Source of the DNA: a virus
Virus record (IMG/VR): IMGVR_UViG_3300012920_000240
Coordinates: 1 to 25,327 of that record
Length of the DNA: 25,327 nt
Strand: one strand, 5' to 3'
The translations under genes were made by a program, and so were the position numbers. Of this stretch, positions 334-22,701 are shown piece after piece. The notes under the pieces were generated by a model. It was not told the origin of the DNA and ran no database searches. It was given only the letters and a program-made list of their open reading frames with translations. Within the stretch, counting starts at the first letter, position 1, and every line of letters starts with the position of its first letter.

Positions 334-840
334 CTTACTTCTTTTCAATAAGTCCTTGAATTCTTCAATAGATAAATCACCTCGCATTACGTTGGCCCTT
401 CTTGATATAATCCATAAATTGTCAGGGTGTTCGTCTTTGCTATTGTCAATTCTGTCTAGGCTTGGTCTAAATCTATGATCGTCAGTAATTACATTTTCTT
501 TCAATCCATAATCTAGTACAGTATCAAACACAGGACATCTATCAACTGCTTTTGGTAGTAAACGTTGTATAAATTCTAATTTTGAAAAAAGTTTTCTTGA
601 TTGGTTAAGTTCTTTCCTACGTTGAGAAACGCTTTCATCTGAATTACGATTCCATTGTTTTCCTAAAAACGTTATTCGTATCGCTGTTTCAACATCTATT
701 TCTTTTCTTCGTGCAGGATAAAATGCAATACGTTTACAAGACCCCCAAGTGAGTGAATCAGTATTTTTTATTACAGTAAAAAAGTTATTTCTTTCCTTGA
801 TTGCTTGTTCAATTCTTGCGTTTTCTAATGTGATATTCAT
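328..840 (-). CDS. HNH-like homing endonuclease
   Basis: This is a 170-residue protein. The C-terminal part matches a phage HNH-type endonuclease pattern: CPVF near residue 102, then PSLDRIDNS near 126-134, then N-LWIISRRAN near 141-150, and a GDLSIEEF tail. The Asp-Arg-Ile-Asp segment and the following Asn/Arg-rich helix are the expected catalytic and metal-binding part. The N-terminal 100 residues are probably DNA-binding and are not recognised. I chose ATG at 840 over an in-frame TTG at 873 because the TTG is the -35 box of a good promoter (873-846) whose start site falls at about 840, giving a leaderless mRNA. The gene is probably a free-standing mobile endonuclease inserted between phage genes. 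Confidence 0.7.
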   Translation of the reverse strand: MNITLENARIEQAIKERNNFFTVIKNTDSLTWGSCKRIAFYPARRKEIDVETAIRITFLGKQWNRNSDESVSQRRKELNQSRKLFSKLEFIQRLLPKAVDRCPVFDTVLDYGLKENVITDDHRFRPSLDRIDNSKDEHPDNLWIISRRANVMRGDLSIEEFKDLLKRSKL

Positions 841-845
841 TCCAA

Positions 846-873
846 ATTTTAACACAGATTTAAAATCTGTCAA
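846..873 (-). promoter_or_regulatory. Sigma70-like promoter of the HNH gene, near-leaderless
   Basis: On the minus strand TTGACA (873-868) is followed after 16 bp by TAAAAT (851-846). The expected start site is at 839-840, on the ATG of the endonuclease gene. Confidence 0.55.
854..870. promoter_or_regulatory. 17-bp palindrome inside promoter spacer, candidate operator
   Basis: ACAGATTT, a single A, then AAATCTGT: perfect 8-bp arms around a one-base centre. It fills most of the region between the -35 and -10 boxes of the HNH promoter, a classical site for a repressor dimer. The function is inferred from position only. Confidence 0.45.
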
Positions 874-896: not shown

Positions 897-1577
897 ATGT
901 ACTCTATATACAAAACTGTTAATAAAATCACGGGTAAATTCTATGTTGGTAAACAGCACAGGAATTATGATTATTATCTCGGCAGTGGTAAACTCCTAAA
1001 GAAGGCCATAGCCAAACACGGCAAACACAATTTCACTAAAGTTATATTAGAGGATGGACTGACTGCCAAACAGGCCTCTTACAGAGAACAACATTGGATT
1101 AAAGAAACAGGCGCCTTGACTTCACAGGGTTACAACATGAACCTAGGTGGTGTAGGCGGTGACAACAGTCAGCATATTAATTATAAGAAGAGAGGAAACC
1201 CAAGTGATAATTTCGCTGGTAGGCAACGCTGGTGGAATTCCTTGACTAAACAACAACAAAAAGCACAGCATAGGAGACAAGGCATGGCTAGATCAAAAGT
1301 GTGGTACGTCAGCAAAGTGGGATCTAAAAAAGAAAACAAAATAGTGAATATACACGAATGGTGTAAAAACAACAACATTCAAACAGAAACAGCAACTTGT
1401 ATCGCTACAATTGGATCAAGGCTCTACGGTAAGCAAACAAAAGGATACAGGTTCAGAAGAGCAGGCGACCCTAAACTACCACCTTATGAGGATCGTAGAC
1501 ACATTCCTACAGACAACGGCTGTAAAGGCAAAACCTGGCGTTTGAAGGACGGCAAGCGTGTTTGGATCACTGTATAA
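897..1577 (+). CDS. GIY-YIG homing endonuclease
   Basis: This is a 226-residue protein. Residues 1-90 form a GIY-YIG nuclease domain: the IYKTVNKITGKFYVGKQ strand carries the degenerate GIY...YVG motif, followed by a Lys/His-rich helix (KKAIAKHGKHNF) and the glutamate-containing YREQHWIKETGA segment expected to hold the metal-binding Glu. The C-terminal 110 residues are basic and repetitive and end in GKTWRLKDGKRVW, a segment typical of DNA-binding modules of phage seg/NUMOD-type endonucleases. It is probably a free-standing homing endonuclease. It is divergent from the HNH gene across a 56-bp gap and is expressed from a late promoter. The stop codon overlaps the next late promoter. Confidence 0.85.
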   Translation: MYSIYKTVNKITGKFYVGKQHRNYDYYLGSGKLLKKAIAKHGKHNFTKVILEDGLTAKQASYREQHWIKETGALTSQGYNMNLGGVGGDNSQHINYKKRGNPSDNFAGRQRWWNSLTKQQQKAQHRRQGMARSKVWYVSKVGSKKENKIVNIHEWCKNNNIQTETATCIATIGSRLYGKQTKGYRFRRAGDPKLPPYEDRRHIPTDNGCKGKTWRLKDGKRVWITV

Positions 1578-1618: not shown

Positions 1619-3229
1619 GTGCCTATAGTGAACATCTCCCGAATTCAGCATAGAAGAGGTCTAAAGACTGATCTCCCACAACTTGCCGCGGGTGAATTAG
1701 GGTGGGTTGTGGATGAACAACGTCTTTACATTGGAAACGGCACAGTGGCGGATGGTGCTCCAGCAGTGGGCAACACAGAAATTGTCACAGCAGGATCCAG
1801 CAGTTTCACCACAGCACTCAGTTATGTGTACAAAGGTTATTTGGGTGACAGCACAGTGGTTGGCACAGGTGCATCGGGTGATGTCACAAGAACACTGCAA
1901 CAGAGATTGGATGACTATGTGAGTGTAAAAGCCTTTGATGCCAAAGGTGACAACAGCACAGACGACACAGCGGCCATACAGAGAGCATTGGACGAACTGT
2001 ATTCAGACACAGATCAAGACGACACAAGGGCAAGAAGAATTTTATTTTTTCCAGCAGGCATATACAAAACCTCATCAGCATTGACCATTCCACCATACGC
2101 ACATTTGGTAGGAGAAGGACCAGACAAATCAATTATCAGCAACACAGGGAACAACTTGATTGCTGTCACAGAAGACGATGACGGCAATGGTTTTGGAAGT
2201 ATAGGTGCGGCCAGTGCCACAACTCCAACACAGATTCAATTGTCAAATTTAACATTCAAAACAAACTCTGCCAGTGGTGGAATGTCATTTGATTGTGTGT
2301 CTAAAGTATATGTAAATCAGTGTAAATTCATTGGTGACTATTCCAAAGATTCTGTGACCACAGACACATCAACATCAAAAGGTATAAGTGCCAGAGCACA
2401 ATCAGGTTTAAAAAGTTCACATCTAGTGTTCAACCAATGTCAGATTACAGGCTTTGCCAGACTGGTTGATTTCAGTTACAACATTGACAATGTCACATTC
2501 AACAACTGTGATTTCAGCAATGCCTACTATGGCGCACTGTTGGGAGAAACACAGGACGGAAGCACAGCAGGTTTGGATGTGGGACCAAGAGATATCAAAT
2601 TTTCAAACTCCACTTGGGAGAACATCAGCCAACAGGCCATCTATGTGAAACTGAGTAGCAGTACCACAGGACCAGGCACAAGAAACATCATCAGTTACGG
2701 CAACTGGTACAGTTCAACTGTGGGCAACAATTTTGAAGGTGTGGGTTCAATCAGAGAAGTGCCAATCATACAATTTGACAATGACGAATGTTCGTCAGTG
2801 ATGGACTTCTTTGAAAGATCAGATCTACGTAGATCAGATGGCAGTTCAGAATTGAATGCCGCTCCAGAATTACAGGGTATTGGGATACAAACCAAAGCAA
2901 TAAAATCACAAACTCTCGCAGACAACACATCGTCGGCCACTACGATAAATGAATATCCAGCACTAGCAGGCAAAGGATTGAAAATAACTTACAAGATTGT
3001 GAGAGGCACACTAGACAGAACAGGTGAACTGGTTGTCAGTGCAAGTACCAATGGTGTCAACTACGATGACACATTCACAGAAAGCGGTGCTGATGTGGGA
3101 GTAGAACTTACAGCAGTGCTTGACAACAAAGACTCCACAGCAGGTTCAGAAACTGTGGCGTTGAAATTCACAACTTCCAGCACAGGTACAGACGCCACAA
3201 TTGACTATCAAACAACAATTATAGCATAA
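1619..3229 (+). CDS. Tail-fibre/tailspike-like protein with pectate-lyase-type beta-helix
   Basis: This is a 536-residue protein with a GTG start, chosen because AAAGGAA lies upstream and the N-terminus matches the family. Residues 8-41 (RIQHRRGLKTDLPQLAAGEL, then LGWVVDEQRLYIGNG) are the short module that opens many phage fibre and tropism proteins, probably for virion attachment. Residues 100-125 (VSVKAFDAKGDNSTDDTAAI) are the signature start of pectate-lyase-superfamily beta-helices. A long Ser/Thr/Asn/Gly-rich repeat region to about residue 400 fits the helix coils. The last 120 residues look like a separate beta-rich receptor or trimerisation domain. It probably binds and perhaps degrades host surface polysaccharide; an enzymatic activity is not proven by sequence. 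Its late promoter fits a virion role. Confidence 0.8.
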   Translation: MPIVNISRIQHRRGLKTDLPQLAAGELGWVVDEQRLYIGNGTVADGAPAVGNTEIVTAGSSSFTTALSYVYKGYLGDSTVVGTGASGDVTRTLQQRLDDYVSVKAFDAKGDNSTDDTAAIQRALDELYSDTDQDDTRARRILFFPAGIYKTSSALTIPPYAHLVGEGPDKSIISNTGNNLIAVTEDDDGNGFGSIGAASATTPTQIQLSNLTFKTNSASGGMSFDCVSKVYVNQCKFIGDYSKDSVTTDTSTSKGISARAQSGLKSSHLVFNQCQITGFARLVDFSYNIDNVTFNNCDFSNAYYGALLGETQDGSTAGLDVGPRDIKFSNSTWENISQQAIYVKLSSSTTGPGTRNIISYGNWYSSTVGNNFEGVGSIREVPIIQFDNDECSSVMDFFERSDLRRSDGSSELNAAPELQGIGIQTKAIKSQTLADNTSSATTINEYPALAGKGLKITYKIVRGTLDRTGELVVSASTNGVNYDDTFTESGADVGVELTAVLDNKDSTAGSETVALKFTTSSTGTDATIDYQTTIIA

Positions 3230-3237
3230 ACAACTTT

Positions 3238-3888
3238 ATGTTATTATTAAATGGTTGCAGTTTCACGGACCGATGGATACCATCACAAAACTTTTTACAA
3301 GCAGTTGACTGTGCCAAAACAATGAATATTTCTATACTGGGTGGCAGTTTTCAAAGAACCCTAAGAACCACAATAGAATACTGTGCCTTATTTGGTAATC
3401 CTAAATTTGCTGTGATTCCAATAACACTGGCCAGCAGATGGGAATTGGCACTTGCCAGAGAAGATGTGATCATAGACGGCACTTGGTACAGTATGCAACA
3501 TCCTGAGTATATTGATTTTGACAAACTGGACAAATCAATACCTAAAGAAAAAGTAAAACAGTTGGTTGAAAACTACTACGGCATTATTCCTAATGTGAGA
3601 TCCACTTGGGACAAAATGTTCACTGAGATTATTGCGTTGGCATCATTTTTTAAAGCAAACAATATCAAGTATTTGATGTTTGATATGTGTAATAATTTTG
3701 AAACAAAACATCTCACAGGTTACAAGGGTTTTGAGAAATTGGATCTTATTAAAAATAACAAAAACATAATTGACTTGTTTGAATTCTGTGGTAATAAGTT
3801 TATGTACGATTCAATGACTGCAGAACAACAAAAAGATATAGACGCATATATGCACCATCACCATGCCACAGAATATGTTGCATTGTAA
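3238..3888 (+). CDS. SGNH/GDSL-hydrolase-like protein
   Basis: This is a 216-residue protein starting 8 nt after the fibre gene, so probably in the same late transcript. It opens MLLLNGCSFTDRW: a beta-strand followed by G-C-S-F-T, which resembles block I of SGNH hydrolases with Ser8 as nucleophile. LGGSFQRT follows near residue 34. Near the end D-AYMHHHHATEYVA resembles the block V Asp-x-x-His. These features suggest an esterase or deacetylase acting on carbohydrate, which would suit a gene beside a polysaccharide-binding fibre. The middle of the protein is not recognised, so the family call is moderate; the function is inference. Confidence 0.5.
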   Translation: MLLLNGCSFTDRWIPSQNFLQAVDCAKTMNISILGGSFQRTLRTTIEYCALFGNPKFAVIPITLASRWELALAREDVIIDGTWYSMQHPEYIDFDKLDKSIPKEKVKQLVENYYGIIPNVRSTWDKMFTEIIALASFFKANNIKYLMFDMCNNFETKHLTGYKGFEKLDLIKNNKNIIDLFEFCGNKFMYDSMTAEQQKDIDAYMHHHHATEYVAL

Positions 3889-11968: not shown

Positions 11969-12479
11969 AAATCTTACTAACCTACCAGAGATCACATTCA
12001 AGAGCAAAGGCAAGCCACAGTTGGCAGAGTTGGCACGTTACGTGGATCATATGAAACAGAGTCTGTTTGATGATCAGTGGAGCCACAGTACCAAAAAGCA
12101 CATCAAGACAGCAATGACCCTGTATATTAGGTCAATGCAGAAACAGTTGGCTCCAATGGGTGCTCACTATAGAGCAGAAAACATAATTGGCAAACAGCAT
12201 CTGGAACACGTGATACCACAGAACAAAATCATTACGGCCTACTTACACAACAAGATCACGGCAGAGGTGATGTTGCAGATGCCGTTGTGTATGATAGATG
12301 ATGCCGACAAACATAAACTTGAAGGTGACTGGCAACAGGCTGGAGACTGGCAGTACCCGTTCCGTAGATATCGATCAGCAGGCTTTACTAACACCATCAA
12401 AGATGTCACAGGAAAAACTATTGACCTACAAAATTACACTTTAAATAATCATTTTGATATGTTGGGTTACAAAATATGA
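11955..12479 (+). CDS. Unknown protein with an EHVIPQ motif, possibly HNH-like
   Basis: This is a 174-residue protein with AAGGAG 5 nt before the ATG. Residues 75-90 contain GKQHLEHVIPQNKII. A Glu-His pair followed by Ile-Pro resembles the start of the His-metal motif in DUF1524/HNH-type nucleases, but the expected later Asn/His residues are not obvious. Downstream are LCMIDDADKHKLEGDWQQ and a WQYPFRRYRSAGF segment, which fit a compact mixed fold. It sits after the DGQHR gene and the 57-residue gene in an overlapping unit. The nuclease idea is a weak inference. Confidence 0.5.
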   Translation: MNNFKNLTNLPEITFKSKGKPQLAELARYVDHMKQSLFDDQWSHSTKKHIKTAMTLYIRSMQKQLAPMGAHYRAENIIGKQHLEHVIPQNKIITAYLHNKITAEVMLQMPLCMIDDADKHKLEGDWQQAGDWQYPFRRYRSAGFTNTIKDVTGKTIDLQNYTLNNHFDMLGYKI

Positions 12480-13288
12480 ATATTTTATTATTAGGCGATT
12501 GTGCATCTTCTGGAAACAATACTCTTTTGCCATCAATTTTACAAAACAATAACTTACATATAGAATATAGTATGCCATGGAAAGGTGATAATTGGAAAAA
12601 ACTAATGTTATGGTATCTAAAAGAAACAAAGCATATCAGAAATAAAATTGTTGATCAAAACGACATTTATTTCAATGCTTTAAAATATTTAGAAGAACAG
12701 GAATTAGCAAACAGTTATTTTAAACATATCTCACATAATCATCACTTAACAAATGTCAGTAAAAATGGTGCAACAGCATACTCATATTACAAAAGATTAC
12801 AAAAATATGAAATGGAATTTAATCATAAACCAGACATTATTTTTGTGACAGATTATTGTCCGGCACACAATTGGCAAAGAATTAATCATAGTAATTCAAA
12901 ATATTTTCTTGAAAAACGATTTGATCCTACAAATGATAATTTTGTTTACAACAAATATCTGAAAGCACCAGAACATATACAAAAATTAGCCTACGCAAAA
13001 GCAAAAAAATATTTCTTAAAAGGAGAAAATTTTATCATAAAACGTAATCAAAAAATAATGACTTGGTTTTTGAATTACTTAGAATCTAACAATTACAAAT
13101 ACTACAAATTGAAATTTTACAGAGGATTCAAAGAATTTGATAATGACTCTTCTGCGGTTGATTGTTCAAGTTTTGTTGATCAATATACCAGAGGAAGACA
13201 AGATATTGTGAGTGAAAAAATAAAAGTAAGTAAATGGATTGCTGACAAAATTGCACAGCAACATCCATGGTTGACAGATAACCAATAG
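12476..13288 (+). CDS. AT-rich unknown protein, SGNH-like N-terminus
   Basis: This is a 270-residue protein coupled to the upstream gene by ATGA. The N-terminus MNILLLGDCASSGNN resembles the strand plus Gly-Asp-(Ser/Cys) turn of SGNH hydrolases. A second strand, KPDIIFVTDYCPAHNW, follows near residue 118. The rest is rich in Lys, Asn and Tyr. The gene is visibly more AT-rich than its neighbours (wobble positions mostly A/T), which suggests separate acquisition. The 3' end contains a perfect promoter for the next operon. The catalytic His of block V is not clear, so an enzyme call is uncertain. Confidence 0.45.
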   Translation: MNILLLGDCASSGNNTLLPSILQNNNLHIEYSMPWKGDNWKKLMLWYLKETKHIRNKIVDQNDIYFNALKYLEEQELANSYFKHISHNHHLTNVSKNGATAYSYYKRLQKYEMEFNHKPDIIFVTDYCPAHNWQRINHSNSKYFLEKRFDPTNDNFVYNKYLKAPEHIQKLAYAKAKKYFLKGENFIIKRNQKIMTWFLNYLESNNYKYYKLKFYRGFKEFDNDSSAVDCSSFVDQYTRGRQDIVSEKIKVSKWIADKIAQQHPWLTDNQ

Positions 13289-13305: not shown

Positions 13306-13442
13306 ACAACGCACATTGAGTAAATGGTGTAAATCATTTGTAACCTCAATTCCAACACCCGCCTTAGGGTTTATGCATTGTAGCCAAGGGGAGTGACAGC
13401 CGCCGCGGCGAGATACATTGTTTACTCGTGTGTTATAAAATT
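13306..13442 (+). ncRNA. Structured GC-rich leader or small RNA, candidate cis-regulator
   Basis: This stretch has no gene and is far richer in G+C than its surroundings. CACCCGCCTT (13356-13365) can pair with AAGGGGAGTG (13386-13395), 8 of 10 positions. Alternatively GAGTGA (13391-13396) pairs with TTACTC (13422-13427) around a hairpin GCCG-CCG-CGGC (13399-13409). The two share 13391-13395 and exclude each other, as in a riboswitch or attenuator. A further AAATG/CATTT hairpin lies at 13322-13339. There is no recognisable known riboswitch class and no Shine-Dalgarno next to the downstream ATG. Pairing was found by eye. Confidence 0.45.
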
Positions 13443-13886
13443 ATGAGCAAGACAAAAGAATTACTAGAAGGATTAAGTCAAATAACAGCCAAACCATCGG
13501 CACCAGATCCAATATATACATCTGTGTCAAATCAATATGGCGAAACAGCAGATGGCAAACCTATCTACATTGACAGATTGTATGGTGGATTGTATGGTGA
13601 TACCAAACTGATCAACAAAGACCACACCAGGTACAAAGGCAAAATATATAGACGTAGAAGATTAATATCCAGAAAAACAGTGGGTGGTGATGTGAATAAT
13701 TTTTACAGTGTGTGTTATGAAACAGCAGATGGCAGATGGTTTGACAACTCAGGTATGCCCATAGAAGCACCCAAAAAATTAGAACCTGAAAAGGTCAAAA
13801 CAGCAGAAGAGATTGAAGAAGAACAGCAACAAAAGGCCGAGATAGCCAAACGTAAAGAAGCGGCCATCCTAGCAAATTTAAAATGA
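13443..13886 (+). CDS. Unknown protein opening the oxygenase operon
   Basis: This is a 147-residue protein from ATG at 13443; an in-frame GTG at 13428 is less likely. The N-terminus is polar. The centre, IYIDRLYGGLYGDTKLINKD then YRRRRLISRKTVGGD, looks beta-rich and basic. The C-terminal 35 residues are a charged helix (TAEEIEEEQQQKAEIAKRKE), possibly a coiled coil. No family recognised. It overlaps the first oxygenase by ATGA, so it is first in the operon after the structured leader. Confidence 0.6.
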   Translation: MSKTKELLEGLSQITAKPSAPDPIYTSVSNQYGETADGKPIYIDRLYGGLYGDTKLINKDHTRYKGKIYRRRRLISRKTVGGDVNNFYSVCYETADGRWFDNSGMPIEAPKKLEPEKVKTAEEIEEEQQQKAEIAKRKEAAILANLK

Positions 13887-14533
13887 ACAAGCAAGAGTAT
13901 GAAACCTTATTAGCGACCAAGCCATGGCAAGAAATGGAGCAACACTTTGACAATTTGCCTGTGGCCACTGTTGAGCCAATTGCATCTTTAGATATTAACA
14001 CAGAAGATTGGATACAGTTTACTATTGATAACTTTGACCAAGCACAGCAAAAATGGGAGTCACCAAAAGATCACTATGCAGATTACAGTAATAAATGGGC
14101 AACCATAAACAACCAATTAGGTAGAAACCAACACAACACATTTGAATTAAATTACGGAATGCTAGGTGATAGCAATCAAAAACTTGTGAACTTGTTGGGA
14201 GAAAAAAATATAGAAACACTTGGTGCAGATCCTGAATCTATCCTGATGAGATTTATTGTGAAAATGCCTGGGCACGGCATTGCTTGGCACGAAGATGATG
14301 CAGGCTCTTACAAAACCAAGTTTCCCAATGCAGATACTAGCAAATTAAAAAGACTTTGGTTTAGTATTCAGGATTGGAAAGACGGTCACGCATTTCAAAT
14401 TTCAAAAACTGTAATTACAAATTGGACAAAAGGATCTGTATATAACATTCCATTTGGTTTAGGACACGCATCAAGTAATTTTGGGTATGTGCCACAGTAC
14501 ACTGTGTCTTTTACAGGCATCATAAATGATTAA
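13883..14533 (+). CDS. Fe(II)/2-oxoglutarate oxygenase-like protein A (Asp/Asn beta-hydroxylase type)
   Basis: This is a 216-residue protein. It shows the HxD...H iron triad: H136 and D138 in PGHGIAWHEDD, and distal H195 in GLGHASSNFG. Between them lies the paralogue signature RLWFSIQDWKDGHAFQ, then W-T-K-G. Upstream NTFELNYGMLGDSNQKL is shared with copies B and D. Enzymes with this core couple 2-oxoglutarate decarboxylation to hydroxylation of a peptide, amino acid or small molecule; the substrate is not readable. In many relatives an Arg after the distal His binds 2-oxoglutarate; here that region reads YVPQYTVS without it. The stop overlaps the aminotransferase start by 8 nt (ATGATTAA). Confidence 0.75.
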   Translation: MNKQEYETLLATKPWQEMEQHFDNLPVATVEPIASLDINTEDWIQFTIDNFDQAQQKWESPKDHYADYSNKWATINNQLGRNQHNTFELNYGMLGDSNQKLVNLLGEKNIETLGADPESILMRFIVKMPGHGIAWHEDDAGSYKTKFPNADTSKLKRLWFSIQDWKDGHAFQISKTVITNWTKGSVYNIPFGLGHASSNFGYVPQYTVSFTGIIND

Positions 14534-15626
14534 CACTCAAAACTTTCATAGACGTTGGCAAGAAATCAAAAACGATGTGCTTGAAGGTTTAGAACAAATA
14601 CATCAAAACGAAACAGTGGTGAATGGATATTTTACTCAACAGGTAGAAGAAAAATTGAAGTTGTTGTCTGGTAGAAAATATGCTGTGCTGTGTAGGTCAG
14701 GATCTCACGCAATCTCAATGAGTTTACGAGCATATGATTTGGGATCTTGGGACAAGGTTATTATTCCAAATTACAGTTGTCCAGCAACCTTGAGCAGTGT
14801 GAATGTGATAGGTTGTGTGCCTGTGTTTTGTGAAGTGAACGAATTTGGATCACTAGACAGTGATAGACTTTTAACTTTGGCCAATAGCGATGCCAAAGCA
14901 GTGTTGGCCACAGGTTTGTATGGTGATGTCCACGATCACGCCGCAGTCAAAGAGTTCTGCATTCAAAACAAAATGATTTATGTGAACGATGCCGCACAAT
15001 CACAGTTTGCATTGTATAACGGCGCAAATTCTTTAACTTTAGGCGATGTTGTTTGTATGAGTTTTGCTGACAACAAAGTTATTCCAACCAGTGGTACATT
15101 TGGTGCTGTGTTGACTGACAACCAAAACATTTATGAAAAATTACGTGTGTTGCGAAAAAATGGAAAACCTGGTAGACTAGAAGATTATGAAGTGGCAGGA
15201 TTCAGTAGCCATCCTGAAGAAGATAAAGCAGTACAGATACTAGCATCAATGAAACACTTTGAAAAATGGAAAAACAAACGTATTGCAATTGGCAAAATCT
15301 ATGATGAGTTTTTTAAAGACAAAATTGTTGTGAGACCCAGTCCTTCTTATTCTACTTGGAATGGGCACAAATATTCAATCTTAGTTGAAGACAAATTTGA
15401 ATGTTACAAAAAATTAAAACAACAAGGCATTGAAACTGAACAGCATTACGTGGACAGTTTTGTACAATTATTATGGACACCTAAAGAACAACAAGATGAA
15501 GATTTTTCCATATCTAATAAGTTTATACAACAAAGTTTGACTTTACCTAACAATCCTCATATGACAGACGAAGAAATTGAACGTGTGGCCAAATCTGTGC
15601 TGATGGTAAATGGTATAGATAAATAA
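14526..15626 (+). CDS. DegT/DnrJ/EryC1-type PLP aminotransferase, copy 1
   Basis: This is a 366-residue protein, normal for the family. Residues 50-62 (RKYAVLCRSGSHA) form the phosphate-binding loop, D155 in VNDAAQS should hold the pyridine nitrogen, and K184 in MSFADNKVIPTSG is the expected Schiff-base lysine, followed by the usual G-x-x-GAVLT. Family members transfer an amino group from Glu or Gln to a keto-sugar nucleotide, or act in AHBA-like and other keto-substrate pathways. No sugar nucleotidyltransferase is in the window, so the substrate is open. It overlaps oxygenase A by 8 nt and is followed by a structured 166-nt gap. Confidence 0.85.
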   Translation: MINTQNFHRRWQEIKNDVLEGLEQIHQNETVVNGYFTQQVEEKLKLLSGRKYAVLCRSGSHAISMSLRAYDLGSWDKVIIPNYSCPATLSSVNVIGCVPVFCEVNEFGSLDSDRLLTLANSDAKAVLATGLYGDVHDHAAVKEFCIQNKMIYVNDAAQSQFALYNGANSLTLGDVVCMSFADNKVIPTSGTFGAVLTDNQNIYEKLRVLRKNGKPGRLEDYEVAGFSSHPEEDKAVQILASMKHFEKWKNKRIAIGKIYDEFFKDKIVVRPSPSYSTWNGHKYSILVEDKFECYKKLKQQGIETEQHYVDSFVQLLWTPKEQQDEDFSISNKFIQQSLTLPNNPHMTDEEIERVAKSVLMVNGIDK

Positions 15627-15792
15627 TTTTGTAACGCCACATATCTTGTGACGTCGGACAAGTACAGGACCAATACATAAGAACTGGCCCTTCCGTATGC
15701 GGACTCTCGCTAACATTAATCTAGTGTAGTATAGGAAACAATATAATTGACTCCTATTGCCTTTCTATGCTACACTTACAAAAGGATTAAAA
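15627..15792 (+). ncRNA. Structured intergenic RNA/leader before oxygenase B
   Basis: This is a gene-free gap in an otherwise overlapping operon. Four successive hairpins can be drawn: CGCCACA/TGTGACG (15635-15653, one mismatch), AGGACCA/TGGCCCT (15666-15691, one mismatch), TCCG-TATG-CGGA (15692-15703), and a long AGTGTAGTATAG (15723-15734)/CTATGCTACACT (15765-15776), 12 bp with one G-U. Inside the last, ATAGGA (15731-15736) can instead pair with TCCTAT (15752-15757). It ends 4 nt before the AAAGGA ribosome site (15781-15786). A weak TTGACT, 18 bp, TACACT promoter at 15747-15776 is possible. Known riboswitch class not recognised. Confidence 0.45.
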
Positions 15793-16602
15793 ATGGCTGA
15801 TAGAAAATTAAAACCTAGTGAGGTAATGTCCAATTACAAGAACATACCTGCAGACATAAACATTTACACACGTGAAAGCGAAATGAAAGACTATCCTGAA
15901 GTTACACTTTGGGACTTTATAGATCAGAGACCTGATAAAGACTATGAAAAGTGGGCCTATGATATTGGTTCAGATCTTACAACTGAGTATGAAGCAAATC
16001 CATTATCTAAATTAGATATAAACGAACAAGACTTCATAGACTTTATGATGAATAACAAAGATACTTGTCAAAAAAAATTCTATGAAAAACGTCCTTATCA
16101 TAATGGCATAAGTGAACTTACTTTAAATTTGCCAATGAAATGTGGTTACAACTCTCGTAACACTATAGAATACAATTGGGGCCTGTACGGCAACAGCAAC
16201 GAGCAGGTGAAAGAACTTTTAGGCACCAGAAAAGTCTGGGAAGACAAAATTGGCATTGATTATGACACTGCTCTAATTAGATTGTTGGCATACTTGCCTG
16301 GACAAATATTGCCTTGGCATCATGACAACTTAGGAAATTGGTGTAGAAATAATAAACATTTGAATCCAGATATAGATGCTCAGATGTGTGATTTAGGACC
16401 AATCAGAAGATATCTTGTGATGATCACTGACTGGCATTGGGGACACGTGTTACAGTTTCAAAACAGTTATTTTCCTAGATGGAAATCTGGTGAGGTGTAT
16501 GACTTACCTATACCACAACCTCATTGTTCTGCCAATATGGGTATGAGACTGAAACTGACTTGCAGTATTAGTGGAGCACTCACAAATGAAATTAAATCAT
16601 AA
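15793..16602 (+). CDS. Fe(II)/2-oxoglutarate oxygenase-like protein B
   Basis: This is a 269-residue protein. ATG at 15793 with AAAGGA upstream is preferred to an in-frame TTG at 15757 inside the hairpin. Triad: H176 and D178 in LPWHHDNLG, distal H244 in PQPHCSANMG, with a Lys in MRLKLTCS that may take the 2-oxoglutarate-binding place. Shared signature: RRYLVMITDWHWGHVLQFQN (205-224). NTIEYNWGLYGNSNEQ is nearly the same as in A. Copy B has the longest N-terminus, about 60 extra residues of unknown role. Its stop overlaps the start of C by 17 nt. Confidence 0.78.
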   Translation: MADRKLKPSEVMSNYKNIPADINIYTRESEMKDYPEVTLWDFIDQRPDKDYEKWAYDIGSDLTTEYEANPLSKLDINEQDFIDFMMNNKDTCQKKFYEKRPYHNGISELTLNLPMKCGYNSRNTIEYNWGLYGNSNEQVKELLGTRKVWEDKIGIDYDTALIRLLAYLPGQILPWHHDNLGNWCRNNKHLNPDIDAQMCDLGPIRRYLVMITDWHWGHVLQFQNSYFPRWKSGEVYDLPIPQPHCSANMGMRLKLTCSISGALTNEIKS

Positions 16603-17299
16603 AATACCCACACAGAGATTAGATCCAAAACCAACTGTTCCAAAAGAAATCTTAGAACAGCATCCGTGGCATTGGGATCCTATGAAAAAAGATCACAGTG
16701 ACGAAACCTGTTATTTGAAAAACATCAAATTCGATTGGGCGGCTCTGGCCAAATGGTCAATTGAAAAGTGTAATGAGCATCTGACTCCACAAAAATATTG
16801 GTGGTACGATTACAAGAACGATGTGGTGATGCACGCCAAAGACAATGTGAACAATATGCCAATCAGAGAGCAGGCAAAATTGGCTTTGAAAAATAATACT
16901 CATAACAAAGATAACAGCCAATATTTTAAAATTGCAAATGAAGAATTTGGCCATTGGTATGAACCTTTAGCGGCTATGTTTCCAAACTTGAAAAAGGATA
17001 AAATGGGTATCAGTCTTTTTATACAAATGCCGGGACACACAATATGGAGTCACGTGGACACTTACAGCAGTTTTATTAGAAGAACAAAAGGACCAGCAAA
17101 TTATTCTGTGTTGAGAAGATATATGGTTTTTGTAAAGGACTGGGATTGGGGACATTTTTTCCATTATGGCAATCACTGTTTTAACCAGTGGCAGGCAGGT
17201 GATTGTTGGGATCTACGTCCAGGTATCTATCACGGCAGTGCCAACGCTGGTGTGAATCCAAAAATAACAATACACTGGAGTGGAGAAATCAATGATTAA
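16586..17299 (+). CDS. Fe(II)/2-oxoglutarate oxygenase-like protein C
   Basis: This is a 237-residue protein. ATG at 16586 with GGAG 9 nt upstream; an in-frame GTG at 16571 would be longer but lacks support. Triad: H156 and D158 in TIWSHVDTYSS, distal H216 in GIYHGSANAG, then a Lys in NPKITIHWSG. Signature: RRYMVFVKDWDWGHFFHYGN. The N-terminal 130 residues are rich in Trp, His and Lys and diverge from A, B and D, suggesting a different substrate or partner. The C-terminus IND and the overlapping ATGATTAA junction repeat what is seen at the end of A. Confidence 0.77.
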   Translation: MKLNHKIPTQRLDPKPTVPKEILEQHPWHWDPMKKDHSDETCYLKNIKFDWAALAKWSIEKCNEHLTPQKYWWYDYKNDVVMHAKDNVNNMPIREQAKLALKNNTHNKDNSQYFKIANEEFGHWYEPLAAMFPNLKKDKMGISLFIQMPGHTIWSHVDTYSSFIRRTKGPANYSVLRRYMVFVKDWDWGHFFHYGNHCFNQWQAGDCWDLRPGIYHGSANAGVNPKITIHWSGEIND

Positions 17300-17384
17300 A
17301 TTTTATAAAAAAGTTTTGGTTTGGTGGAACAAGCCTATTGAATATAAAAAACCAAAACACGATTACACTGTATTTTTTAGATAA
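17292..17384 (+). CDS. 30-residue mini-protein between oxygenases C and D
   Basis: The peptide begins MIKFYKKVLVWW and ends HDYTVFFR; it is basic and aromatic. Its ATG overlaps the stop of C (ATGATTAA, 8 nt) and its TAA overlaps the start of D (TAATG). Exact coupling on both sides argues for translation. It may be a small membrane-associated peptide or only a re-initiation relay. Confidence 0.45.
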   Translation: MIKFYKKVLVWWNKPIEYKKPKHDYTVFFR

Positions 17385-18028
17385 TGACAGACATTTACGA
17401 TAGAAAAGACTACTACGAAAAGTATCTTACGGAAAAAAAAGTAGATCTAAAAGACGAATTAGATCTTGCAGGTTTAGAAACACAAATAAATCTTGATACA
17501 AAATCTTTCACTGACTTTATGCAAGAGCACAGATCAGAAAGTCTACAAAAATCGTTCAAGCCGAGACCGTTTTTTGATTTTGACAGTCTAAGACAAACCA
17601 CGTTTTTGAATGATTTAGGTTACAACGAACACAACACATTTGAATATAACCTTGGAATAAAAGAAGAACATAATACATCACTCAAAAATATGTTGGGCAA
17701 CGGTGCTTTTGATCATCTGCAAATAGAAAAATCAACTGCTGTGGTTAGATTATTAGAATACAAACCTGGCAATGGAATTCCGTTGCACACAGACAGTTAT
17801 CACGCATTCAGAGAAAAAAATAAAAACCGCAATGGTTCTATTCATAGATATTTTATTGCGGTCAGCGAATGGAGTTGGGGTCATTTCTTGCAAGTACACA
17901 ATCACATGATACATCACTGGAAACCAGGATATGTCTGTGAAATTCCAGAAGGTGTGTTTCATTTATCTGCGAACTTTGGAATACAAACTAAATTATCTTT
18001 AACACTCACAGGATTTAGGCCCATATGA
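17384..18028 (+). CDS. Fe(II)/2-oxoglutarate oxygenase-like protein D
   Basis: This is a 214-residue protein, close in length to A. Triad: H135 and D137 in IPLHTDSYH, distal H193 in GVFHLSANFG, then QTKLSLTLTG with a Lys. Signature: HRYFIAVSEWSWGHFLQVHN, with Glu in place of Asp before Trp. GYNEHNTFEYNLGI and LKNMLG match A and B, so A, B and D form one subgroup. The stop overlaps the second aminotransferase (ATGA), so D stands to copy 2 exactly as A stands to copy 1. Confidence 0.78.
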   Translation: MTDIYDRKDYYEKYLTEKKVDLKDELDLAGLETQINLDTKSFTDFMQEHRSESLQKSFKPRPFFDFDSLRQTTFLNDLGYNEHNTFEYNLGIKEEHNTSLKNMLGNGAFDHLQIEKSTAVVRLLEYKPGNGIPLHTDSYHAFREKNKNRNGSIHRYFIAVSEWSWGHFLQVHNHMIHHWKPGYVCEIPEGVFHLSANFGIQTKLSLTLTGFRPI

Positions 18029-19077
18029 TTTCAAATACAGCAGGTGATAGACTCTATAAACAAATACACGAAAGATTAATGGACGCATACAATGAAATTC
18101 ATTTATCTGGCAATTGGATTGATGACAAATTTACAGAGTCTGTTGAAAATAAATTAAAAAAAATTACTGGTAGAAAATATGCTAAACTTGTTACATCGGG
18201 TACATCTGCTTTGAATGTTGCATTATTATCTTGGAATATCATTAACAAAAATGTGGCCTGCACCAATTATAGTTACGTTGCAAGTGTAAGTCAGGCCTCT
18301 TTAATTAACAAAGTAGATTTTTTTGACGTAGATAAAAATGGAGTAATTGATTTAGAAAATAAATTTACACAAGATGCTGTTATTCCTGTATCACTGTACG
18401 GTAACACTATTGATTATGATAAATTTAAAGTTTCAGACCACACAAAAATTATTGTAGATTGTGCTCAAAGTTTGGGTGCAAAATACAAAAATAAAGCAGA
18501 CGGAAGTTTTGGTGATGTTGCAGTTTTTAGTTTTGCAAGAAATAAACCTGTACCCACAGCAGGAACTCACGGTGCTTTGGTATGGGACGACGACTCAATG
18601 ATGCAAAGAGTTAAAGCAGTATCAAATAATGGCAAATTAGGAATGAACAGTCCTATTGAAGCATTTGGGATAAACGCCATACCAATGGAAATACAAGCGG
18701 CGTGGATTGATATAGGATTAGATCATATGGGAGAATGGCAGGTCAAAAGAAAACAAATACATGATTTCTATTGCGATTCTTTTGCTACTTTACCCGTTAA
18801 CATAATACAACCTAATGAACATTGTGAATCAAATTATCATAAGTTTGCGATGACCACTGGAAAAAGAAAATCATTATACGAACATTTGAAAGATAATAAA
18901 ATTCACGCACCACTTCATTATGTAGATAATTTTGCACACGCTTATGGTCATAAAGGATCCTTTACAAATACTGATTATTTGTGTAATACCATCATTACAC
19001 TGCCAAATCATGCTTGGTTAACTGATACAGAAGTGGAGACTGTGGCACATACAGTCAAAAAGTTTTTTAATGGATAA
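18025..19077 (+). CDS. DegT/DnrJ/EryC1-type PLP aminotransferase, copy 2
   Basis: This is a 350-residue protein. Key elements: GRKYAKLVTSGTSALNVAL (49-67), D145 in IVDCAQSLGA and K174 in FSFARNKPVPTAGTHGALV. All residues needed for PLP chemistry are present. It resembles copy 1 along its length (GRKYA, NYS near 82, SLYGN, C-terminal LPN and MT/LTD-E-VE motifs) but is clearly diverged, so both are probably active on different or successive keto substrates. The gene is more AT-rich than copy 1. It overlaps D at its start and the epimerase-like gene at its end (8 nt). Confidence 0.85.
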   Translation: MISNTAGDRLYKQIHERLMDAYNEIHLSGNWIDDKFTESVENKLKKITGRKYAKLVTSGTSALNVALLSWNIINKNVACTNYSYVASVSQASLINKVDFFDVDKNGVIDLENKFTQDAVIPVSLYGNTIDYDKFKVSDHTKIIVDCAQSLGAKYKNKADGSFGDVAVFSFARNKPVPTAGTHGALVWDDDSMMQRVKAVSNNGKLGMNSPIEAFGINAIPMEIQAAWIDIGLDHMGEWQVKRKQIHDFYCDSFATLPVNIIQPNEHCESNYHKFAMTTGKRKSLYEHLKDNKIHAPLHYVDNFAHAYGHKGSFTNTDYLCNTIITLPNHAWLTDTEVETVAHTVKKFFNG

Positions 19078-19591
19078 CATTTGTATAATTGGTGCTACAG
19101 GAAAATTAGGACAACAATTATTGCAGTATCCTAACACAGTTTCTTGTCCTGTACGTTTTGAAGATTTTAAAAATTATCAGCAATGGTTTGACACTCATCC
19201 CAAAATAGATACTGTGTGGCACGTGGCTCGTACCTGTAGAAAAATATCTCCGAGGAGAGATTGGCACACATTAAAGTTGGAAACCACAGCAATGAAAAAT
19301 CTTTTACAAACTAGAGCAAAAGATTGTAGATTTGTGTATGCTTCAACAAAAGTAGTTTATGGTATCACCAACGAAACCACACCATTACCAAAACAAAATG
19401 TTGCTGAAGCCTTTGTTGATAACAAAACAGGCGTATTCAATTGGCCAGAGTGGAAAACCAACAGTATCGTCTCATTAAATGGACTTTCTGAACAGCACAC
19501 CACTTACGCAATAACCAAATTAATTTGTGAAAGATATATCAGTAAAACCTGTTCAAATTACAAAATTTTAAGGATCTGGGATATCATCTAA
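19070..19591 (+). CDS. Short NAD-dependent epimerase/reductase-like (extended SDR) protein
   Basis: This is a 173-residue protein. Rossmann start MDNICIIGATGKLGQQ (G8-x-x-G11-x-x-G14), then DTVWHVART, then FVYASTKVVYG with the catalytic Ser/Thr region and Y146-x-x-x-K150 (YAITK). It fits RmlD/NAD-epimerase-type enzymes acting on nucleotide sugars. It stops right after the strand ILRIWDII, where full-length relatives (about 280-330 residues) continue into the substrate-binding C-terminal domain. I see no continuation in another frame, so it is a natural short version or a decayed gene. Nearby aminotransferases suggest a keto-sugar pathway. Confidence 0.7.
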   Translation: MDNICIIGATGKLGQQLLQYPNTVSCPVRFEDFKNYQQWFDTHPKIDTVWHVARTCRKISPRRDWHTLKLETTAMKNLLQTRAKDCRFVYASTKVVYGITNETTPLPKQNVAEAFVDNKTGVFNWPEWKTNSIVSLNGLSEQHTTYAITKLICERYISKTCSNYKILRIWDII

Positions 19592-19597
19592 TAAATA
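19590..19597 (+). promoter_or_regulatory. Possible variant late promoter
   Basis: AATAAATA differs from the late consensus by its first base. It overlaps the SDR stop and lies about 30 nt before a gene with a strong ribosome site. Weak evidence. Confidence 0.25.
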
Positions 19598-19630
19598 TTA
19601 ACGGAGTCAAACCTTATAAGGAGACAAACT

Positions 19631-20380
19631 ATGTACAAGTTTGAAACTAAGACTAACGAAGCAGGTGAGATCCAAGAAGTGATCAATCACCAACCAGAAG
19701 GATACAATCCTCAAACTGGTATCTATGCTTCAAGTTACATTTTCCAAGGCGACTGGGAAGATGAACTGAAGGCTCTGAACTTCACTAGAAGAGGTGACAA
19801 GTTCAAAGAAACTTCTAAAATTGATGCAATGAAAGGTCAAGATTCACAATACCTTTACAATTCATTTAGAAGTGCTGATGGTAAGGACACAACTCACGAT
19901 CAGTTACAAGACTTCTGGACAGAAGAAAATCCAGCAGACTACAAAGACACTAATTCAAAACTTTCTTCACCAAAACTGGCCGCAATCTGCGATTGGTTCC
20001 AGTGTGAGAAAACTAGAATTAGAATCTTCCAACAACAACCAGGTGCTTATATGCAAATGCACACAGACTTTGATAACCAAAGAGGTAACCAATATGGTGA
20101 AACTTTGAGAATCTTTGTGCAATTGACAGATCAACCAGGTGGTGCTTGGTATAGATTCAAGACTGCGGATTCAGAAGTAAGCATCAATTTACAAAAAGGT
20201 CAGTTTTTGATTTTCAATCCAGATCACACTGGACACCAAACTCAAAACTTAACTGACGTTCCAAGAAATGCTTTCATGTTAGTTGTTAAAAGAAACGCAT
20301 GGTTAGATTCTTTAACCAAGAACGAGACTATGACTTTTATCGATGTAAATGAACTTGCAGAGCAAAAGAAATCAGCATAA
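19631..20380 (+). CDS. Fe(II)/2-oxoglutarate oxygenase-like protein E (distinct type)
   Basis: This is a 249-residue protein with a strong AAGGAG (19618-19623) 7 nt before the ATG. Triad: H144 and D146 in AYMQMHTDFDNQ, distal His at 199 or 202 in PDHTGHQTQNL, and R212 in DVPRNAFMLVV in the usual 2-oxoglutarate position. TLRIFVQLTDQPGGAWYRF fills the place of the D-W-x-x-G-H signature, so it belongs to a separate lineage from A-D and F. Codon use differs from neighbours: more AAC, AAG, ACT, GGT and GCT, suggesting high expression or recent origin. The substrate is unknown. It is followed by a separate promoter. Confidence 0.72.
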   Translation: MYKFETKTNEAGEIQEVINHQPEGYNPQTGIYASSYIFQGDWEDELKALNFTRRGDKFKETSKIDAMKGQDSQYLYNSFRSADGKDTTHDQLQDFWTEENPADYKDTNSKLSSPKLAAICDWFQCEKTRIRIFQQQPGAYMQMHTDFDNQRGNQYGETLRIFVQLTDQPGGAWYRFKTADSEVSINLQKGQFLIFNPDHTGHQTQNLTDVPRNAFMLVVKRNAWLDSLTKNETMTFIDVNELAEQKKSA

Positions 20381-20383
20381 TCA

Positions 20384-20412
20384 TTGACAAACTTATAGCG
20401 GCATTTTATAAT
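20384..20412 (+). promoter_or_regulatory. Perfect-consensus promoter of oxygenase F
   Basis: TTGACA (20384-20389), 17 bp, TATAAT (20407-20412). Start near 20419, then AGGAA at 20421-20425 and ATG at 20432: a very short leader. Confidence 0.78.
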
Positions 20413-20419
20413 GTCGCTA
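20396..20419. promoter_or_regulatory. 24-bp near-palindrome over the -10 box, candidate operator
   Basis: TAGCGGCATT (20396-20405) and AATGTCGCTA (20410-20419) pair at 9 of 10 positions, the tenth being G-T. The axis lies in the TATAAT box and the repeat ends at the predicted start site. It looks like a repressor site; in read-through RNA it could also fold as a hairpin, but no U-tract follows. Confidence 0.5.
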
Positions 20420-20431
20420 TAGGAATTTACT

Positions 20432-21172
20432 ATGTTAGAATACGCAAAACAGAAATGGGACGAAATTTCTAAGGTCAAAGATTTTCTTGCTTTTGTTGAA
20501 GATCCAAAAGTTGATGTAATGGAGTTTTTTAAAACTCAAGCAGATACCTCAAAAAGTGGATTTTGGATTGCTGGCAATATTAATTTTGATATAGACATTG
20601 GAAGGATTCTCAAACAAAAACCTCAAATTAAAAACGATGAAATATCATATCTGACTAGAACTCCTAGTGAGATTGAACACCATAAAAAATTTAAGTTCAC
20701 AAACGGTTACGATAGACACGTGCCCAATGATGAAGTAATGCAGATAGTGTCAACATTAGGTTTTAACGAGAGACCAAGTGTGTACATCAACAATCAAACA
20801 CCAGGAACCTTAATTCATAGACATATTGATTTTGTATCTTGTTATACCTACGACAGAAGCGATGACAAAAACTTTTTAGAACTTCCATATGATAAAGAGC
20901 GGAGACAAGCCACTGGACACAAAGATATATGGAGATGTTTTGTAGCATTAGATGATTGGAAACCAGGACAGTTGGTAAACTTTGAACCTGGCTTTTGGAG
21001 CAATTGGAAAAAAGGTGACATAATGTTTTGGGATTGGAGAAACACACCTCACAGCACAGCCAATTGTGGTATCAATGATCGACCGTTATTAAAAATTACA
21101 GGAACAATTGACAATGACGAGTGGGTCAGACAAGCAAAACAGTCAGGTACAATCAAACAATTTTATGTATAA
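20432..21172 (+). CDS. Fe(II)/2-oxoglutarate oxygenase-like protein F
   Basis: This is a 246-residue protein. Triad: H131 and D133 in TLIHRHIDFVS, distal H207 in NTPHSTANCG, with R217 in NDRPLLKITG in the usual 2-oxoglutarate-binding place. Signature: WRCFVALDDWKPGQLVNFEP, with Gln instead of His. It is therefore a distant member of the A-D group. The N-terminal 100 residues are unlike the others. It has its own promoter and operator-like palindrome, and overlaps the PP-loop gene by 8 nt, suggesting the two products act together. Confidence 0.75.
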   Translation: MLEYAKQKWDEISKVKDFLAFVEDPKVDVMEFFKTQADTSKSGFWIAGNINFDIDIGRILKQKPQIKNDEISYLTRTPSEIEHHKKFKFTNGYDRHVPNDEVMQIVSTLGFNERPSVYINNQTPGTLIHRHIDFVSCYTYDRSDDKNFLELPYDKERRQATGHKDIWRCFVALDDWKPGQLVNFEPGFWSNWKKGDIMFWDWRNTPHSTANCGINDRPLLKITGTIDNDEWVRQAKQSGTIKQFYV

Positions 21173-22268
21173 TTGGGTTTACCAAGTTGGAGAAAAAAAG
21201 TTTTCAAGTAAACTTCTAGCCATAAATCATAGTAATCAAACAAGTAAACCAATCTATTTTAATTGTCCACAAGATTACAACACCTATGATTTTTCAAATG
21301 AACCCAAAGAAAGTTTACAAGTTTTATTCAAAAATCAAGCACAGAAAATTAGAGATTCATATAAAACAGTACGACTGTACTTTTCAGGTGGATCTGATAG
21401 CCATTTGATATTAAGAACTTTTCTTGATAACAACATACCTATAGATGAAATAATTTGTTTGAAGTCAGGTTTTGCATCTGCTGATTTTGAAATTGACAAT
21501 TATGCTATTCCTATATTAAAAAAATTAGATTTAAAAAATACAAAAGTCCATATTAATTGTCCATCTTTAGAAACCTATTACAAATATTATAAAGAAGGTG
21601 TCACAGCAGAAAAAATACAAAATAGTTCATATACATATCATACACATTTTAGACTACAAGAAGCAGTAGAATACCATAGTGAAAAAAATTACAATCCTCT
21701 TACTGCCAATATGAGAGGTTTTGATAAGTCAACCATAATCTACAAAGACGGACACTGGTACACATATTTTCTTGATGTAAATTTAGAACCTTTCCCACAT
21801 ATGATCAATTTTTTTAGTGATGATACAAAAATTCAAAGCAAACAAGCACACAAATGGAAACGTGTAGTTGAAACTCTCACAGACAAGCAAGGAAATAAAA
21901 CACATAATTTTCAAGACAAGGAAATTCAAATGATGTGGAACCAAGCCACAGGTAGAATTTATGAAACACCTCTGAAAGATTGTTTTTATGATAAGGGTGA
22001 TAATCATATTTTAATTGATAATAAAAAATGGTATTACAGGAATTTCAAAGAAAAATATGCATTTGAATCTGTGATGCTCAAGAACAAAGAACTTTTATAT
22101 CTTTGGCAATCAAATCTACAAGATCTTGCCAAGTACACAGGAAACCATTGGTGGAATCAAGGATCCCCAGAATTAGGTTCCATAGGAATTTTATCAAAGT
22201 TTTATTGTTTAACCAAAAATCAAACAAAAACTGTGGATGAATTATATCCCAACGGCTTCAAACCCTAA
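21165..22268 (+). CDS. PP-loop ATPase, asparagine-synthase-like
   Basis: This is a 367-residue protein. ATG at 21165 overlaps the stop of F; the frame extends upstream to 21108 but only as overlap. Residues 69-79 (VRLYFSGGSDS) are the PP-loop, S-G-G-S-D-S, which binds ATP and releases pyrophosphate in asparagine synthetase, QueC and tRNA-thiolation enzymes. IDEIICLKSGFAS follows as the second strand. No N-terminal glutaminase Cys is seen, so it is not a full AsnB. The C-terminal 200 residues are Lys/Tyr/Trp-rich and unrecognised. It probably adenylates a substrate for amide or related bond formation. The gene is AT-rich. Confidence 0.68.
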   Translation: MYNWVYQVGEKKFSSKLLAINHSNQTSKPIYFNCPQDYNTYDFSNEPKESLQVLFKNQAQKIRDSYKTVRLYFSGGSDSHLILRTFLDNNIPIDEIICLKSGFASADFEIDNYAIPILKKLDLKNTKVHINCPSLETYYKYYKEGVTAEKIQNSSYTYHTHFRLQEAVEYHSEKNYNPLTANMRGFDKSTIIYKDGHWYTYFLDVNLEPFPHMINFFSDDTKIQSKQAHKWKRVVETLTDKQGNKTHNFQDKEIQMMWNQATGRIYETPLKDCFYDKGDNHILIDNKKWYYRNFKEKYAFESVMLKNKELLYLWQSNLQDLAKYTGNHWWNQGSPELGSIGILSKFYCLTKNQTKTVDELYPNGFKP

Positions 22269-22291
22269 TAAAATAGCCACTTTTTTGCCAG

Positions 22292-22320
22292 TTGACGGAA
22301 ATACCAAACTATGTTATAAT
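22292..22320 (+). promoter_or_regulatory. Sigma70-like promoter
   Basis: TTGACG (22292-22297), 17 bp, TATAAT (22315-22320). Start near 22327, then AGGAGG at 22332-22337. An imperfect inverted repeat TACCA...TGGTA (22302-22327) with inner CTAT/ATAG surrounds the -10. Confidence 0.75.
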
Positions 22321-22344
22321 AGTGGTAATTTAGGAGGAACAATT

Positions 22345-22701
22345 ATGTATAAATGTTCAGCAAAAGCACAATTAGTAATGGATCAGGTTAGATCAAGATG
22401 TCAATCTGATACACAAACTAACAACAAGTGGACTGGTAGATCTGGAAACTATATGTATATCATGGGCAGAGAGAATGCTGATGGTAAGGCAACAGGTGTT
22501 GTACACAAAATTTCAGAAGACGGTTCACACAAATTATGTGGATCATTCAAGATCATGAGTGATGGTATTATCACTAGATTCACAGGTTTGTCAAAAGCAG
22601 ACTGGAATTCATTTATGAATTCAGCAGAAGCAGAATACAAAAGAAAATATTCTGAGACTGCCACAACAGAAGAAACAACAGCAGAAAAAGTTGCTGTTTA
22701 A
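22345..22701 (+). CDS. Small soluble protein, probably highly expressed, unknown
   Basis: This is a 118-residue protein. A perfect AGGAGG 7 nt upstream and a strong promoter decide ATG at 22345 against the longer frame from 22237. Sequence features: helix MYKCSAKAQLVMDQVRSRCQ with two Cys, then strands GNYMYIMGREN, TGVVHKISEDG and LCGSFKIMSDG, a helix, and an acidic Thr/Glu tail (TATTEETTAEKVAV). The short leader and optimal ribosome site suggest an abundant early protein such as a host-takeover factor. No family recognised. Confidence 0.65.
   Translation: MYKCSAKAQLVMDQVRSRCQSDTQTNNKWTGRSGNYMYIMGRENADGKATGVVHKISEDGSHKLCGSFKIMSDGIITRFTGLSKADWNSFMNSAEAEYKRKYSETATTEETTAEKVAV

Follow-up and report, generated by a model that had tools for sequence, protein, structure and literature searches.

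Why should a phage carry six oxygenase genes in one short region, and what could they do together? The window is the complete IMG/VR virus record IMGVR_UViG_3300012920_000240 (25,327 bp, 83 open reading frames, ORFs), and the genes in question are ORFs A to F, which are real, collinear, all on the plus strand and located, as first noted, within positions 13,883-21,172. The likelier starts of B and C are the ATG at 15793, preceded by AAAGGA, and the ATG at 16586, respectively. The reading we favour, with a probability of roughly 0.45, is that these ORFs belong to a phage-borne, horizontally exchanged biosynthetic cassette, each of whose oxygenases would catalyze its own step in the conversion of a shared small molecule or glycan precursor.

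The original prediction described A-D and F as paralogues sharing an HxD...H site, and E as an enzyme of another type. The pattern PG-x5-HxD...R...G...HxxxN occurs in exactly six of the window's 83 ORFs, namely A to F, E included. None of 41,500 shuffled ORFs fits this pattern, and the only fit among 459 ORFs from stretches of another phage is itself a family member. Among window ORFs, D matches B (E=7e-32), A (3e-28) and C (9e-17). F matches B at E=4e-7 in pairwise comparison and at 1e-11 when the F-profile is compared with the B-profile, and thus joins the family by profile. A single hidden Markov model (HMM) built from all classes recovers all six proteins, E at 2.5e-41 (E being among the rows used to build the model). 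The conserved signature of the family reads R(Y/F)xV...(D/E)W..G(H/Q), W..G and H-x-(S/T)-(A/S)-N; the distal motif, initially given as H-x-S-(A/S)-N for all five paralogues, does not hold for F, which reads H-S-T-A-N. Judging from these comparisons, A-D and F form a single protein family whose Fe/2-oxoglutarate (2OG) motif is intact. As E has every metal-site element, the view that it is unrelated was wrong: its sequence places it as a deep, divergent branch carrying the same motif.

Profile libraries largely miss this family. Neither Pfam nor NCBIfam matches A-D or F, and PHROGs gives them no significant match, while E falls below the Pfam gathering scores of both PF13640 (2OG-FeII_Oxy_3; 20.9 bits vs 27) and PF05118 (Asp/Asn beta-hydroxylase; 19.0 bits vs 22.6, E 0.0013), so that the proposed PF05118 search did not place the array in that family. 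A defence-library scan returned a generic 2OG model for E only. Sequence searches of the PDB gave a weak ALKBH8 match (0.003) with the family profile, and chance matches only with E alone.

The active site and the fold are more informative. The metal ligands H135, D137 and H193, together with R155 and N197, are invariant in 84 of 84 aligned sequences. Ten positions after the distal His (H+10), where a basic residue should bind the C5 carboxylate of 2OG, classes B, C, D, E, F and F2 carry Arg or Lys. An AlphaFold2 model, built for D alone with 25 family members, confidently predicts a double-stranded beta-helix (DSBH; pLDDT 87, pTM 0.85), the first His ending one strand and the distal His beginning another, as in this fold. 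Foldseek matches of the model in the PDB include AsqJ, SptF, the Pseudomonas putida prolyl-4-hydroxylase (P4H), PHD, proline 3-hydroxylase and AspH (E of about 1e-4 to 4e-6), as well as cupins; among viral models, the search retrieved phage proteins that lack characterisation (1.5e-12) and numerous 2OG oxygenases. Given the invariant metal ligands, the DSBH model of D and the basic H+10 residue of most classes, A-F are very probably Fe/2OG oxygenases, as originally proposed, with turnover predicted.

The array contains six oxygenases but does not consist purely of them, contrary to its first description (Table 1). Two DegT/DnrJ/EryC1 aminotransferases, AT1 and AT2, score 187 and 169 bits against PF01041 (gathering score 19.8). 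Their candidate pyridoxal phosphate (PLP)-binding Lys, read by eye, lies in FADNKVIPTSGTFGA in AT1 and in FARNKPVPTAGTHGA in AT2. The solved relatives nearest AT1 are 7b0d (glutamine--scyllo-inositol transaminase, 1.5e-40) and QdtB (2e-32), and the nearest relatives of both proteins act on keto-sugars or inosose. The SDR-like protein aligns over the Gly-rich loop, Ser and Y-A-x-x-K, and lacks the C-terminal substrate lobe. Finally, the PP-loop protein G, in whose SGGxDS motif G75, G76, D78 and S79 are invariant and S74 nearly so, is kept in every complete island examined, mostly at the island's end. Its AlphaFold model has a pLDDT of 78, and its best Foldseek match, a weak one, is LarE (E=6.5e-4).

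Table 1. Oxygenases, partner genes and flanks of the island, with positions in the window.
Feature	Position	Strand	Length (aa)	Remarks
Left flank of island	13428..13886	+	152	Same place in L007-L011, L014, L190 and L192
Oxygenase A	13883..14533	+	216	HxD and distal His intact; H+10 is Gln, not Arg/Lys; motif, class clade
AT1, DegT/DnrJ/EryC1 PLP aminotransferase	14526..15626	+	366	PF01041 E=7e-55
Oxygenase B	15793..16602	+	269	71-87% identity to seven measured related loci, dS saturated
Oxygenase C	16586..17299	+	237	
Oxygenase D	17384..18028	+	214	AlphaFold2 DSBH, pLDDT 87, pTM 0.85
AT2, second DegT aminotransferase	18025..19077	+	350	PF01041 E=2.6e-49
Minimal NAD(P)-binding SDR/epimerase-like protein	19070..19591	+	173	PF01370 E=1.6e-6
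Oxygenase E	19631..20380	+	249	Arg at H+10; weak PF13640/PF05118
Oxygenase F	20432..21172	+	246	Widest phage distribution (F-type relatives)
G, PP-loop ATP-pyrophosphatase-like protein	21165..22268	+		SGGxDS; follows F
Right flank of island	22237..22701	+		80-95% identity in relatives

Related IMG/VR islands, recovered with E and B as queries, show that the arrangement is conserved. Of eight such loci besides the window, L007, L008, L010, L011, L014, L016 and L018 keep the order B-C-D, then E, and every complete B-bearing cassette has B, C and D in sequence with E downstream (the eighth, L012, is truncated after its third oxygenase, which belongs to another class). Variably present are F2, F, A, AT1, AT2 and the SDR gene. 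Full records contain three to eight family members where the cassette is present (five to eight oxygenases in relatives with a complete cassette, vs six in the window), and one to four in about 20 more distant phage records. The most conserved member is E (89-92% identity in close relatives). In the family tree, A, B, C, D, E, F and F2 group by class across phages, with starred support for A to E and with E on a long separate branch. The duplications are therefore ancient and the classes have stayed distinct, so that the tandem duplication first envisaged survives as paralogy but not as a recent event. The tree speaks against recent tandem duplication, the L008_6345/11879, L037 and L192 pairs being exceptions that resemble within-phage duplicates.

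Backbone and cassette do not share the same history. Relative to the window, identity in L007 is 91% for the ParB-like flank, 71% for B and 43% for D; in L008, L011 and L014 it is 73% for the flank and 86-87% for B; in L010 it is 37% for the flank, 73% for B and 90% for E. Such discordant identities indicate that the cassette, or parts of it, moves between phages. Where computable, dN/dS in the cassette is 0.06-0.31 (dS is saturated elsewhere), a range indicative of purifying selection and strong constraint. Furthermore, DegT genes are found in 7 of 9 loci with A-D-class oxygenases vs none of 48 loci without them (Fisher 1e-7, relatedness uncorrected), and SDR genes in 6 of 9 vs none of 48.

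F-type relatives have a wider distribution, being present in about 50 viral contigs. Of 46 distant contigs, 35 have a small GxPGSxWS protein within 200 bp of the oxygenase, 26 encode a TctC-like binding protein, and 8 encode TctA. A recurring series in these contigs (among L023-L068) is TctA, TctC-like binding protein, GxPGSxWS protein and F-type oxygenase, sometimes then followed by PP-loop proteins. By eye, the PGSxW partner has a P-loop/sulfotransferase-type likeness, but a PDB search gave no significant match and we left it unnamed. TctA and a putative binding protein also occur inside islands of the window group (L009:6948-9238, L190:12431-14689, L192:10798-12978). Given the DegT counts, A-D seem tied to aminotransferases, while F-type genes, judging from their neighbours, seem to serve also in a transporter-linked module.

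How could these genes act together? The fixed order, the preserved class identities and the linked PLP-, SDR- and ATP-using genes favour non-redundant steps of one pathway over gene dosage or interchangeable enzymes as the explanation of the array. The original prediction had listed successive hydroxylations in one pathway among its options, and the B-C-D order, the downstream position of E and the tie of DegT to A-D make it the better one. Under this model, the cassette would lie within a variable island of a marine T4-like phage that probably infects SAR11. Each of the six divergent Fe(II)/2OG oxygenases would perform one hydroxylation or oxidation on a single small molecule or glycan precursor, the DegT aminotransferases would aminate a keto intermediate, and the minimal SDR would carry out a redox or epimerisation step. 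G may use ATP to activate a carboxylate or similar group, and the likeliest role of the product would be to decorate a glycan, either on the host surface or on the virion. DegT enzymes normally aminate keto-sugars or inososes, and the nearest relative in an isolate, S-SCSM2R, lies in a glycosyltransferase/amidinotransferase cluster; by analogy, the substrate is probably an amino-sugar-like small molecule.

Several observations weigh against this pathway. No glycosyltransferase or nucleotide-sugar synthase was recognised in the cassette. The usual basic 2OG anchor is missing from class A, in which H+10 is Gln in 5 of 6 sequences (window A included), so class A may bind 2OG differently; in L190_15420 the residue at this position is Met. 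F relatives also occur without an aminotransferase, beside the transporter/binding-protein pair, and the family is therefore not bound to one pathway. Finally, the closest solved folds to D include the protein hydroxylases P4H and AspH.

This last point leads to an explanation that we regard as unlikely, although with some substance, in which each paralogue modifies Pro, Asp, Asn or another residue in virion fibres or host proteins, in the manner of P4H on EF-Tu or of AspH, with targets differing between paralogues; the fibre and host ribosomal proteins had been named as possible targets in the original prediction. It is consistent with the Foldseek neighbours of D (the P. putida P4H, solved with EF-Tu too, PHD and AspH), with the weak Asp_Arg_Hydrox match of E, and with the tail-spike-like gene at 1619-3229, whose product combines a pectate-lyase fold with the N-terminal domain of a major tropism determinant (PF18454, 1.8e-9). 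However, it leaves unexplained why two DegT genes, an SDR gene and a PP-loop gene are interleaved with the oxygenases, and why DegT genes are associated with them. A product of another kind, an amide or peptide made by Asn-synthetase-like ligase chemistry of the PP-loop protein, in which the oxygenases would modify an amino acid and not a glycan, would account for the presence of G in all complete islands examined, for the Asn_synthase protein inside the L014 cassette, and for the amino-acid hydroxylases (e.g., proline 3-hydroxylase) among the structural matches of D. We nevertheless consider it improbable, as the best structural match of G is LarE, and a weak one, rather than Asn synthetase, and no peptide precursor gene was identified.

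Two further explanations appear very unlikely to us. The enzymes might act by lowering 2OG and raising succinate, thereby reprogramming host nitrogen or energy signalling and metabolism, as has been proposed for cyanophages (PMC3037559). TctA and the binding protein beside F-type oxygenases in related islands could indeed import a 2OG-type acid, but a drain does not require six distinct classes in fixed order and leaves the aminotransferases unexplained. Moreover, uncoupled turnover of 2OG oxygenases is normally slow. Similarly, a base or nucleoside could be oxidised and aminated in succession, since phage DNA hypermodification pathways can combine such chemistries, and the best PHROG matches of E and F fall in the nucleic-acid category. 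These matches are weak and not significant (E-values 0.013 and 0.023), the DegT aminotransferases are of the sugar type, and neither the window nor the cassettes contain a recognisable thymidylate-synthase homologue, base glucosyltransferase or pyrophosphorylase, all of which makes hypermodification hardly plausible.

Returning to the biosynthetic cassette, which phages carry it and what do they infect? The T4-like label is based on a 172-kb relative (G039) with a family-B DNA polymerase and a clamp-loader-like ORF read by eye. The closest sibling of the window (L007/L156; 96% identity for ribonucleotide reductase, 91% for the ParB-like protein) carries a full-length cytochrome b gene (L156:7761-9008, Pfam 5e-68) between nrdB and a PAAR-like gene. 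Others were found at L158:7758-9014, L009:3-1013 and L011:1-948, and in more than 20 further IMG/VR contigs (L149-L175). A quickly built tree places most of the phage cytochrome b sequences with Candidatus Fonsibacter (SAR11) and uncultured Alphaproteobacteria, 20 rows forming a phage-only clade that adjoins Ca. Fonsibacter. The phage group thus probably infects SAR11-type bacteria, on the strength of the group's cytochrome b, which is absent from the nrdB/PAAR-like site in the window record. An open-access literature search returned no report of a full-length phage cytochrome b.

No cellular relative of the family was found. None of 595 sampled genomes, 197 from the SAR11-like order and 398 from the phylum, matched the family HMM (the positive control was phage records, with no cellular one), and scanning GTDB contigs with a pattern from the F-family alignment was likewise negative. 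Among phage isolates, a search for close DNA relatives matched the ribonucleotide reductase region and nothing else, and tblastn of D and of E gave no match. The nearest isolate relative is S-SCSM2R gp308 (PQ898602.1), with 27% identity over half of F. We also considered a bolder scenario, an undescribed, phage-restricted pathway of SAR11 phages whose paralogous 2OG oxygenases, up to eight in number, would hydroxylate one aminated sugar-like metabolite in succession, yielding a compound or glycan made by no known cell; this we hold to be conceivable but doubtful.

Elsewhere in the window, a nuclease-like ORF running off the contig end (1-333) lies beside an ORF with HNH-type endonuclease likeness by eye and no Pfam match (328-873, minus strand) and a GIY-YIG endonuclease-like ORF with a sub-threshold Pfam match (897-1577, plus strand). 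Small proteins beginning LLNGCSF or LLLGDCA recur at 3238-3888 and 12476-13288, and in relatives (L014:12087-13115, L158:6526-7290). They are possibly SGNH-hydrolase-like (one weak DUF6071 match and, in L014, one sub-threshold GDSL match).

The family resembles PF13640/P4H-like enzymes in its DSBH, HxD...H, Arg on the strand after HxD and basic H+10 in most classes; unlike them, window A-D and F are missed by Pfam, NCBIfam and PHROGs, the family has a signature of its own, and A has Gln at H+10. AspH (PF05118) aligns weakly with E, below the cut-off, and does not match A-D or F. Its H-to-Arg spacing is likewise 10, but its site is a two-His site without an Asp ligand, whereas the window family has the Asp of HxD. 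The S-SCSM2R gp308 cluster places a family relative among a DegT-like gene, glycosyltransferases, a radical SAM gene and an inosamine amidinotransferase gene; it differs from the window in holding a single copy of the family, according to the HMM.

Expansions of 2OG oxygenases are already known from marine phages, and calling six such enzymes extraordinary for a phage was too strong. Cyanophage S-SCSM1 has 24 2OG-Fe(II) oxygenases (PMC9602691), HTVC023P-type pelagiphages have eight non-orthologous ones (PMC9599517), and T4-like cyanophages have 1-5 (PMC3037559). These share with the window many 2OG oxygenases in one lineage, with function unknown, but their genes are Pfam-recognised and scattered over the genome or nearby, not adjacent, whereas the window has one Pfam-invisible family in an ordered cassette with DegT, SDR and PP-loop proteins. 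SUP05-associated viral contigs share a 2OG-FeII oxygenase and tctA (a domain match only), which are reported as separate auxiliary metabolic genes (PMC4164917); in relatives of the window, F-type genes instead lie near TctA and the binding protein in conserved order. In a non-exhaustive open-access search of the literature on marine phage 2OG oxygenases, covering passages of these papers, we found no case of a single Pfam-invisible family arranged in order together with aminotransferases. What is new here is thus the conserved, ordered array of such a family, tied to aminotransferases.

Multiplied 2OG oxygenases rank among the commonest unexplained marine phage genes. The family signature exposes members missed by Pfam, NCBIfam and PHROGs, and a conserved, ordered cassette with definable partners replaces a label of unknown function by a pathway of some ten genes that can be tested. 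Should these phages infect SAR11, to which the cytochrome b link points, their cassette would be a metabolism deployed in infections of one of Earth's most abundant bacterial groups.

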